From: Candidatus Sabulitectum sp.
GTDB lineage: Bacteria; Fermentibacterota; Fermentibacteria; Fermentibacterales; JCC-6
DNA: 64,000 bases
NCBI GenBank assembly: GCA_021107435.1
Contig: JAIOSV010000030.1
Coordinates: 1-64,000 of the forward strand
Direction of reading: 5' to 3'
In this document: positions 14,341 to 18,245 of the stretch, piece after piece
How the letters are laid out: each line of letters begins with the position of its first letter
Position numbering within the stretch: position 1 is the first letter of the stretch
Notes under the pieces: generated by a model
Databases searched by the model: none
What the model was told of the DNA's origin: nothing
The model's input: the letters and a program-made list of their open reading frames with translations, nothing else
Translations under genes and position numbers: made by a program

Positions 14341-14856
14341 ATGGAAGTAATTACAGTAAACATCGTGTTGGTTCTGGCAATGAGATTTCTGGAGATATTC
14401 CCAGGTTATTCTTCAATGGTTTTGTCGCATTATCTTCATCCCGAGTCACAGATCTGTGCCGAGCTTGACCCACTTGAGTTCTCTGAGAGTACAGCTTGCT
14501 GGGCAGCAGTAATTCATTTGAGTCAGGCAGGAGTGGAGAACATACATATTTGTGAAGTAACGCGGATAGAAGCGCCGGTCTCCGGTTATCTTGTGGATGC
14601 CACAGGTCAGTGGGATTCCGGAACCAGGGATGATTATCAGGTATTTAGAACAGGAGTTCTGGACGGAGAGGATTACCGGGATAAAAGGGGAGAGGAGTTT
14701 GTCTTCCTGGCTGCCGGTTCAGATGAGAATGGAGATGTGTTTTTGTTTCCCGAGCCTGCTTTCACCAGAGATTCAGTTGCGCAGTTCGTTTATGCCCACG
14801 AGTTCCTTCTGAACCGGAATGAGTTCTTTGCACTTCCAGAACAATATCCCCTTTAA
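14341..14856 (+). CDS. Hypothetical protein, 171 residues
   Basis: No family recognised. The protein is acidic and mostly soluble, with a weakly hydrophobic start (VITVNIVLVLAMRF) that is not a convincing signal peptide. AAGGAG at 14325-14330 gives an acceptable ribosome-binding site. It follows the MazG-like gene by 15 bp, so the two are probably co-transcribed, and it overlaps the end of the convergent FMN-binding gene by 4 bp. Confidence 0.55.
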   Translation: MEVITVNIVLVLAMRFLEIFPGYSSMVLSHYLHPESQICAELDPLEFSESTACWAAVIHLSQAGVENIHICEVTRIEAPVSGYLVDATGQWDSGTRDDYQVFRTGVLDGEDYRDKRGEEFVFLAAGSDENGDVFLFPEPAFTRDSVAQFVYAHEFLLNRNEFFALPEQYPL

Positions 14857-15239
14857 GGAGTAAGAGCGTTTCTGACTGCGATCATTATACAGCGGCTGCT
14901 TCCGGTGGCTCCGGTAACAACATCCACATCGGGACTCTGGGCTTCAATTATCCTGTCCAGAATCTCATGAGCTTCGTAACCCTTTCCACCGCTCTGATTA
15001 AGGATGTCAATGCGGGTGATGCAGTGGTTCTCAACTGTCACTGAGAGTCTTACAGATATAACAAAATCTCCCGCATCACCGGTGTATTCACCGTTTTCAA
15101 ATGAGCCGAGGTCAATATCTGTGATTTGTTCAGATTCAAAGGTGTTGTACATTTCGTTCAGTCTTATTTTATACCACAATCCTGTTGCGGCGACTGCAAC
15201 AAACAGAACTGCAACCGCAATGAGAATCTTTCTTTTCAT
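14853..15239 (-). CDS. FMN-binding-domain protein, membrane-anchored
   Basis: 128 residues. One N-terminal transmembrane or signal-anchor helix (about 4-23) is followed by a compact FMN_bind domain ending VDVVTGATGSSRCIMIAV. In RnfG/NqrC-type domains the S/T of S/TGAT-x-S/T receives FMN covalently from ApbE, so T in TGATGSS is the likely attachment site. Such single-domain proteins usually act in periplasm-facing electron transfer. No rnf, nqr or apbE gene is nearby, so the redox partner is unknown. Confidence 0.8.
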   Translation of the reverse strand: MKRKILIAVAVLFVAVAATGLWYKIRLNEMYNTFESEQITDIDLGSFENGEYTGDAGDFVISVRLSVTVENHCITRIDILNQSGGKGYEAHEILDRIIEAQSPDVDVVTGATGSSRCIMIAVRNALTP

Positions 15240-15314: not shown

Positions 15315-15341
15315 GAAAAGACCCCGGTTGTCCGGGGCCTT
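15315..15341 (-). terminator. Rho-independent terminator after the candidate selenoprotein gene
   Basis: Read on the - strand, a 7-8 bp GC stem (GCCCCGG pairing with CCGGGGT) with a 4-nt loop is followed by a short T run. It lies about 25 bp downstream of the TGA ending the propeller gene. Confidence 0.75.
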
Positions 15342-15364: not shown

Positions 15365-16147
15365 TCAGAAAGTGGATTTGATGGAGCCCCATGTTGTTCT
15401 GGCAAGTGAAGTGTTCAGATCTATCTTGTAGATCTCATCTGTATTTATGTTGCTCACCCAGAGATAACCATCGGTGTCAAAAGTCATTCCATGTGCCGCC
15501 GGAAGAACTGATGAGCTTATGGATTCTACCAGAACTCCGTTTCCGTTGTACACTCGAATAGGGAATTCTGAATCATTGCAGGCATACCACCATTTGTTGT
15601 CAAACCAGGCTATGTCGTAGAAATCAATTCCAAGCTCAACCATAAACTCGGGTCCTGCCTGAAGGTATCCGGTGTAGCTGTAAATCTCAAGACATTCCTT
15701 AAATGTCTGGGTGTCGACGCCAGCACCGTAAATCTTACTGTTTCCTGTAGCGAGACCGGTTACCTCCCGGTCGAGATCGCTTCCTCAACAGTCCAGGTCA
15801 AACAGTCCCTGGTAGACTCCGGAGGTGTTGTATCTGTAACACCAGGAATCTATCAAGTTGGGTGGTGCAGTACCTATGATGTAAACAGTGTTGTTTGCGA
15901 AAGTAAGGCCTGATGGTATCCTGGTGCCGTTGGCGGCACAGAACCAGGAATTCTGGATTGAGCCTGTGGCCGGATCAACTTCGTAAGCAAACTCTGTAAC
16001 ACTGTCCACAGCCCAGAGTGAGCCGTTTCCGAAACCGAGCCCTGAGATATTCGTGTCCGGAGCGTCAATGGTGGAGATTATCTGATAGTCAGCCAGACTG
16101 ATGGCCGCGAACAGGAACAGCGAAACAATGATAACAGCAAATTTCAT
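15365..16147 (-). CDS. Secreted beta-propeller-like protein with in-frame TGA: candidate selenoprotein
   Basis: A single frame runs from the ATG at 16147 (preceded by GAAAGGGG) to the TGA at 15365-15367, interrupted once by an in-frame TGA at 15785-15787 (codon 121). Both halves read as one protein: signal peptide (1-20), then blades such as GFGNGSLWAVD, YEVDPATGS, GLATGNSKIYGAG, WFDNKWWYACND and TFDTDGYLWVSN. The C-terminus is TTWGSIKSTF. Codon 120 is Cys, so readthrough would give Cys-Sec. There is no frameshift or indel, and a SECIS-like hairpin begins 3 nt after the TGA. The alternatives are a nonsense mutation with intact flanks, or a sequencing error. Readthrough product would be 260 residues, exported. 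Confidence 0.6.
15749..15781 (-). promoter_or_regulatory. Bacterial SECIS-like hairpin downstream of in-frame UGA
   Basis: In the mRNA, positions +4 to +8 after the UGA pair with +32 to +36 (AGCGA with UCGCU), and a UCUC bulge follows. Positions +13 to +18 (GACCGG) then pair with +26 to +31 (CCGGUC), leaving a 7-nt loop, GAGGUAA. The loop begins with G, contains GGU at +21 to +23, and caps a 6-bp upper stem. These values fall within the published pattern for bacterial SECIS elements and are close to the spacing in E. coli fdhF. SelB binding is inferred. Confidence 0.55.
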
Positions 16148-16270: not shown

Positions 16271-16299
16271 TTGCTGAAAAGAATTTTCCCGGTTATTAT
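16271..16299 (+). promoter_or_regulatory. Sigma-70-type promoter for the secreted protein at 16355
   Basis: TTGCTG at 16271-16276 and TATTAT at 16294-16299 are separated by exactly 17 bp. They sit about 55 bp upstream of the GTG start of the next gene, in an otherwise empty intergenic stretch. Confidence 0.55.
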
Positions 16300-16354
16300 A
16301 CGTGTTGCGGTTTTGGAGGGTATGAGTTTACAAAACAGAAAAGAGGGGATTAAA

Positions 16355-16951
16355 GTGAAGAATTTGCTTGTTATTTCACTGCTTTTAGCAGTTGCTCAAT
16401 TCGCCGCTGCAGACATTTCAGTGAATTATGGCTGGGAAGGTACAGAAACCATTCTGGGAAACTATGGCGATATCATCGCGACGATTGATACAGATCCTGT
16501 TCACGGCGATTCGCAGTCTCTCAAGCTTGTTGACGATGCGGAATCAGGAACCCCTCAGGCTTTTGTAGGCTGGGTTGTAGGTCTTTCCGACGGGGATCAG
16601 GTAACAGCATCATTCTGGAGATACGACGTAACACCCACTGCTTCTCCTTCAAGCAGAATATGGGGAAGCTGGTGTGATGATCCCGATGACATCACCGCCT
16701 TTGCGGGAACTGCCGGAGGTCAGAGTGATTACGGTCCCGGAGAAGGATGGGACAAGGCCGAGTACACCTGGACTGTTGAAGCAGGACACTCAGGGCTTGT
16801 TATCCAGGCCAGAACCTACTCTTCACCAGGAGATACCGTATGGATAGACGACATGACCATTACGGCTCCTGATGGTGCTGAAATTCGCACCCCCGACTAT
16901 TCTATGGCGCTTTCACCAGACACATGGGCGGCAATCAAGGCTACATTCTAA
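16355..16951 (+). CDS. Secreted jelly-roll (CBM-like) protein with C-terminal TWAAIK motif
   Basis: 198 residues from a GTG at 16355 preceded by AAGAGGGG. A cleavable signal peptide covers about 1-20. The mature part has the beta pattern of a carbohydrate-binding or discoidin-like jelly roll: DPVHGDSQSLKLVDD, then QVTASFWRYDV, and a closing GDTVWIDDMTI. It ends in LSPDTWAAIKATF, nearly the same tail as the neighbouring secreted proteins at 15365 and 17562. Glycan binding is inferred from fold only. A strong terminator follows directly. Confidence 0.65.
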   Translation: MKNLLVISLLLAVAQFAAADISVNYGWEGTETILGNYGDIIATIDTDPVHGDSQSLKLVDDAESGTPQAFVGWVVGLSDGDQVTASFWRYDVTPTASPSSRIWGSWCDDPDDITAFAGTAGGQSDYGPGEGWDKAEYTWTVEAGHSGLVIQARTYSSPGDTVWIDDMTITAPDGAEIRTPDYSMALSPDTWAAIKATF

Positions 16952-17561: not shown

Positions 17562-18245
17562 ATGCGAATATTTATGCTGCTTACGGCTCTGTTCTTCAGC
17601 ATTTGTTATGCTGATGTACTCTTCACCGATGATTTCAACGACGGGAATGATGATGGCTGGACCCATATTGGTGCAGCATCTTACGAAGTAATAGATTGTG
17701 AGTACTTTATCTATAACCAGGGTGACAGGGGGCAGGGGAAATCCATTAACGGTGACGCTTCAGGAGTGATGAGTACTTCCGATTACTCCGTTCTCTGCAG
17801 CATTATGATTGAGTGTGGTTCTGAAGGAGGCATATTTGTACGGTACGAGGGAATTGACCAATGGTATTACCGTATGGTTTTGAAGCCTTATACCGCCAGA
17901 ATTCTGCTTGAAAGAAGAAAAGATTCGGGCCCGACAATGGTGATGGATCACTACAACTTCAGTCTTCACACTGACGTCCGCTACTGGATTCGCCTTCAGG
18001 CTGACGGAGATTCCATTCGCGGTAGAATCTGGTCGGGATCTGTCGCTGATGAACCGGATGTCTGGCACCTGGAAGCAGAAGATGCTGTTCATCAGGAGGC
18101 CGGCTCCTTTGGTCTCTTTGCGGGGGGGTATGGGAAAAACAGAGTCTCCTGGTCCTGCATATTCGATGATGTTGCAGTCTCAACTCCACTTGAGCTGCGC
18201 CTTTCACAGGTTACCTGGGCTTCAATCAAATCCGCCGGTGACTGA
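17562..18245 (+). CDS. Secreted concanavalin-like (DUF1080/LamG-type) protein with C-terminal TWASIK motif
   Basis: 227 residues. Signal peptide about 1-17 (MRIFMLLTALFFSICYA). The body has the order of strands seen in DUF1080/laminin-G-like lectin folds: a FTDDFNDGNDDGW opening, GGIFVRYEGIDQWYY, RYWIRLQADGDSIRGRIW, and a closing WSCIFDDVAV. The tail LSQVTWASIKSAGD shares the TW-x-x-IK motif of the two preceding secreted proteins. It ends 2 bp before murJ, which may be co-transcribed. The ligand is unknown. Confidence 0.65.
   Translation: MRIFMLLTALFFSICYADVLFTDDFNDGNDDGWTHIGAASYEVIDCEYFIYNQGDRGQGKSINGDASGVMSTSDYSVLCSIMIECGSEGGIFVRYEGIDQWYYRMVLKPYTARILLERRKDSGPTMVMDHYNFSLHTDVRYWIRLQADGDSIRGRIWSGSVADEPDVWHLEAEDAVHQEAGSFGLFAGGYGKNRVSWSCIFDDVAVSTPLELRLSQVTWASIKSAGD

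Follow-up and report, generated by a model that had tools for sequence, protein, structure and literature searches.

The bacterial selenoproteins closest to the one described here are those with a CU motif, namely SaoL, HgcA, SaoC, KCU-star and MbdU (PMC13188914). They share with the new family a UGA codon for selenocysteine (Sec), a downstream bacterial SECIS (bSECIS) element and a vicinal Cys-Sec pair, but none of them has been described as a beta-propeller or as an exported protein of the T9SS type. Two further selenoproteins, the FCYXU TonB receptor and the GSU2204 MtrB-like protein (PMC13188914), have domains unrelated to those of the family. Among propellers, the glutaminyl cyclotransferases of PF05096 (3nol, 2iwa) are also five-bladed, and are encoded next to one branch of the new family; however, they have a TQG.E / ESTG signature and no Sec, and there is no full-length homology between the two. 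Propellers of the DUF6923, NHL and SMP-30-like types have only weak, repeat-level similarity to the family. The TonB receptor and the MtrB-like protein are presumably located in the cell envelope, as the new proteins would be, and we take them as likely to act outside the cytoplasm.

The 119 prokaryotic selenoprotein families in a 2026 catalogue (PMC13188914) included no propeller, no selenoprotein model in NCBIfam release 20.0 matched the propeller family, and a search of the literature on propeller or FG-GAP selenoproteins or Fermentibacterota, confined to open-licence papers, found nothing relevant. The way in which Sec appears to be decoded is conventional, while the protein family is new and large, and no description of it was found.

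The gene in the window and its hairpin

The selenoprotein gene lies at 15365..16147 on the minus strand of the window, the whole 64 kb stretch of DNA that was analysed. Read from 16147 to 15365 through an in-frame TGA at codon 121 (15785..15787, minus strand), it gives a single 260-aa protein with a signal peptide, in which codon 121 is taken as Sec. The codon directly before it, TGT (15788..15790, minus strand), encodes Cys120, the partner of Sec. The N-terminal signal peptide, MKFAVIIVSLFLFAAISLA (16091..16147, minus strand), was read directly from the sequence; helix 2-17 of the AlphaFold2 (AF2) model falls within it, and homologues had a similar N-terminus. An earlier note on this DNA had described two halves of a signal-peptide-bearing protein in one frame, split only by a TGA after a Cys codon, and had inferred a Cys-Sec pair from them. 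The gene, the TGA, the signal peptide and the pair were all found again here, the last two in homologues as well; the strand, which that note had left unstated, is the minus strand.

The protein ends in the tail TTWGSIKSTF (15368..15397, minus strand), which is of a TWxxIK type; most homologues have a T9SS-like domain in its place. The same TW-x-x-IK tail ends three neighbouring exported proteins (15368-15397, minus strand; 16271-16951, plus strand; 17562-18245, plus strand). Direct reading of the sequence also identified a terminator-like GC hairpin followed by TCTTTT (15322..15337, minus strand), with the selenoprotein gene on one side of it and the FMN_bind gene that follows (14853-15239) on the other. 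Window-type neighbourhoods contained a divergent secreted protein, a DUF3160 protein and, beyond the terminator-like hairpin, the FMN_bind protein.

The bacterial SECIS element predicted downstream of the TGA (15749..15781, minus strand) is made up of a lower stem, a 4-nt bulge, a 6-bp upper stem (15767-15772 with 15754-15759, minus strand) and the loop GAGGUAA (15760-15766, minus strand), in which GGU occupies 15762-15764. Pairing begins 3 nt after the TGA, and the GGU lies 20 nt after it. Folding reproduced the bulge, the upper stem, the loop and the GGU spacing of about 20 nt as the earlier note had given them. Published rules for bSECIS elements specify a loop of 3-9 nt, a stem of 4-16 bp, a G in the first two loop positions, a spacing of 16-37 nt and a minimum free energy (MFE) of at most -7.5 kcal/mol, and the hairpin in the window meets all of them (7-nt loop, 6 bp, G first, 18 nt, -16.8 kcal/mol). 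When both strands of the 64 kb were scanned for TGA codons that are flanked on each side by 40 or more open codons and accompanied by a GGY-loop hairpin with a stem of 6 bp or longer, exactly one site was returned, the TGA of this gene. An Rfam search at the gene gave no match. Taken alone, the hairpin was only modestly unusual when compared to shuffled sequences (z = -1.9; 8 of 200 shuffles folded equally well), and the weight of the case is carried by the homologues, in which both the TGA column and a covarying pairing are conserved.

Homologues, pairing and the Sec machinery

A protein search over 60 relatives identified homologues in 42 genomes, and about 130 loci were analysed. Named records placed the family in Candidatus Fermentibacterota (Sabulitectum, Aegiribacteria and Fermentibacter), and at least one TGA-bearing member was found in 40 of the 42 Fermentibacterota genomes examined. 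Nearly all of the better homologues contained exactly one in-frame TGA. In all 120 members that carry the Sec loop it was found at one alignment column, and no Cys, Trp, Arg, Gly or any other residue was found at that column among them. Cys was at -1 relative to Sec (CU) in 68 members and at -3 (CxxU) in 51, with 119 members scored and one truncated member left unscored. Distant paralogues from the same phylum that had no stop (L132-L144) lacked the entire Cys/Sec loop. No orthologue with Cys at the Sec position was recognised in an HMM search of 385 genomes, so the usual test of Sec/Cys exchange is missing for this family; Cys forms would support a selenoprotein assignment but do not define one, and Sec itself also occurs in a second phylum. 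The viral contigs searched contained no relatives of the propeller family. Weak matches in 40 genomes from other phyla were not counted; they were fragmentary, repeat-level and nearly all stop-free, and the lone match with a TGA was in G218.

The sequence downstream of the TGA is under strong purifying selection: dN/dS after the TGA was 0.06-0.12 in 10 of 12 comparisons, and dS was saturated in two. Three members (L225, L226 and L227) were found outside the phylum, in G099, a genome from another phylum and the sole one examined from that phylum, which also encodes SelB. They have CPGGU at the same place, within longer multidomain frames, and their hairpins had a different shape and were less convincing.

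In 119 of the 120 members, a hairpin was centred on a GGU/GGC loop at a distance of 20 or 23 nt, counted from the first TGA base; the exception (L116) had an AGU loop and was mis-anchored in the hairpin alignment. Pairing was analysed in 57 distinct 21-mers over 8 stem pairs, with the register fixed on the GGU/GGC. Standard pairs filled 92% of the stem cells, compared to 34-49% when the register was slid by 1-2 nt, and there were 385 Watson-Crick cells versus 248 +/- 7 in shuffles. The eight pairs included 32 standard pair types, with up to six at a single position, indicating that the pairing was conserved with compensatory changes across the homologues. The shuffle control ignores the relatedness of the sequences, for which the slid registers and a constraint on synonymous sites partly compensate. 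This constraint was seen in the CxxU members (46-50), which had zero synonymous variation at codons +7 to +9 (TCG GTG ACG); elsewhere in the CxxU branch, most conserved residues used nearly all of their codons.

The source genome (3.38 Mb, about 92% complete) contained selB, the product of which has winged-helix domains, with selA just upstream, and a tRNA-Sec (70.4 bits) with the anticodon UCA. Two selD genes were present (L010 and L011). Each has an in-frame TGA where Sec is known to be encoded in selD, and a hairpin of the same GGY-loop type at +25, and both SelD proteins are likely to be selenoproteins themselves. SelB was above the curated cut-off in 35 of the 42 Fermentibacterota genomes examined. 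The remaining seven were metagenome-assembled genomes that were 61-86% complete, several of them with selB fragments.

With the sel gene set, the TGA column, the covarying hairpin and the selection downstream all pointing the same way, we consider it highly probable that UGA codon 121 is decoded as Sec. The UGA, the SECIS element, the Sec machinery and the selection for read-through rest on sequence evidence, and insertion of Sec in the cell is inferred, without 75Se labelling or mass spectrometry. The earlier note had reached the same reading, and had allowed that it would fall if the sel genes were missing, if homologues had Gly, Arg or Trp at codon 121 and lacked a conserved hairpin, or if the TGA was an assembly error. 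None of these proved to be the case; as to the last, independent genomes carry the same TGA. Beyond the view of that note were the size of the family, the CxxU branch, the second phylum and the FG-GAP family described below. In the mechanism that we propose, SelB carrying Sec-tRNA(UCA) would bind the GGU-loop hairpin just past UGA codon 121, the ribosome would insert Sec and complete a five-bladed beta-propeller of 260 residues, and the signal peptide would then export the propeller.

Predicted fold and readings of the Cys-Sec site

The beta-propeller that had been proposed from the window alone was borne out by an AF2 model of the protein (pLDDT 91.4, pTM 0.86), which has five four-stranded blades, with Sec121 in loop 118-126. 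A model from the CxxU branch agreed with it. As judged from strand order, with no distances measured, the Cys-Sec pair is predicted to be in the loop between blades 2 and 3, which runs from the outer strand of the former to the inner strand of the latter. The nearest solved folds were glutaminyl cyclotransferases and NHL domains (3nol, TM 0.67/0.74), and the only invariant polar residues in a diverse alignment were Cys120, Sec121 and Asp178.

An additional C-terminal domain was present in 80 members, with T9SS/CHU_C matches in those tested. Por_Secre_tail / CHU_C matches were found in the homologues L060, L131 and L031, while the window protein ends in just the short TWxxIK tail, a form seen in 22 members. 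The 18 members of other forms mostly had a lipobox-like N-terminus or were truncated. The TWxxIK tail substitutes for the T9SS-like domain in one branch, and may have a sorting or anchoring role that has not been described. The window protein can be described as an exported five-bladed propeller, with the qualification that the fold is predicted by a model and that export is inferred.

The Cys-Sec pair (CU in the window protein, CxxU in other branches) would be on the side of the propeller that usually holds the active site in enzymes of this fold. There it may cycle between a selenenylsulfide and a selenol/thiol, and so may act in redox reactions beyond the cytoplasm of these anaerobic bacteria. 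We lean slightly towards such an extracellular thiol/selenol function, which is inferred only, from motif and position. The main rival is that the protein is a selenoprotein in which the pair forms a ligand site for soft metals or organometals (Hg, Cu, Ag, Cd) and not a redox centre, since several catalogued CU proteins handle metals; the SaoL, HgcA and MbdU families have names that suggest metal or organomercury handling (PMC13188914), and a Cys is conserved near Sec in the new family as well. This remains possible but is doubtful, as no conserved neighbour for metal resistance or transport was recognised, and the Cys shifts between -1, -3 and -4 while Sec stays fixed. CxxU is moreover a usual redox motif, and its presence in one branch, together with a Cys partner that moves while Sec does not, favours a reversible selenenylsulfide and extracellular redox chemistry.

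There is a slim chance that the family is related to glutaminyl cyclotransferase, which is another five-bladed propeller, and uses selenium in a related chemistry. The structure 3nol is among the best PDB folds, and a PF05096 gene adjoins the CxxU branch in 14-15 loci, but the profile alignment covered only 65 columns of generic propeller repeat, P0002 had no PF05096 match, and the TQG.E...ESTG residues that are invariant in the neighbouring cyclotransferases are absent from the family. In the CxxU branch (L163-L191, about 14 loci), the upstream neighbours were an SH3 protein, an M48 peptidase and the glutaminyl cyclotransferase, and one or two CxxU selenoprotein genes close this neighbourhood. 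The function of the propeller selenoprotein is not settled by its gene neighbours.

The clear translation of the downstream half would also be expected if UGA was read as another amino acid, through a reassigned code or a suppressor tRNA. This seems extremely improbable: the selenoprotein gene itself ends in TGA (15367-15365), so TGA is not globally reassigned, members as a rule have one in-frame TGA and always at the same column, the hairpin obeys the bSECIS rules, and the sel set is complete, including the UCA tRNA-Sec. That the TGA is a nonsense mutation, a pseudogene remnant or a sequencing or assembly error, which two same-frame halves with a single stop between them might suggest, is already refuted because the TGA is conserved, in 120 members and 40 genomes that come from different assemblies and from named projects, with purifying selection downstream and a covarying hairpin.

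A second exported family and a possible role of selenium at the cell surface

Selenocysteine, the preferred reading of the TGA in the propeller gene, also appears to be encoded in a second, unrelated family of exported proteins, which was found by scanning loci near the propeller genes. These are FG-GAP-repeat propellers with a T9SS-like tail and the motif GUCTGATNPQ; examples are at L149:4762-5979 (plus strand) and at L269:1501-2673, a copy that belongs to the window's own genome. Their hairpin has a GGU/GGC loop, which is mostly found 26 nt downstream of the TGA. The family was found at about 75 places in 29 genomes and in most of the relatives, and nearly all copies have a single in-frame TGA. 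It occurred once in a further phylum. NCBIfam contained no selenoprotein model for the FG-GAP family, and a Cys homologue of it was sought and was not clearly found. In one natural copy (L318, at G024:C35), GUC is replaced by GET and the TGA is absent; judged from its sequence, this copy has apparently lost Sec. Ordinary gene calling splits the proteins at the TGA, and more than 100 propeller genes were apparently missed as a result, along with a second family that is about as large.

We think it reasonably probable that the Fermentibacterota have an extracellular selenoproteome made up of two unrelated classes of exported beta-propeller, the five-bladed proteins and the FG-GAP GUCTG proteins. 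There would often be several paralogues per genome, with Sec just before the innermost strand of a blade, and they would serve a selenium-dependent surface chemistry that has no Cys substitute. Most catalogued bacterial selenoproteins are thioredoxin-like proteins or redox metalloenzymes, and it would be unusual for such a costly residue to serve in a surface-sorted propeller that always has Sec and for which no Cys form was found. Selenium would thereby be linked to surface biology that is still unknown, in a phylum that has not been cultured, and the role of Sec outside the cell becomes open to experiment.
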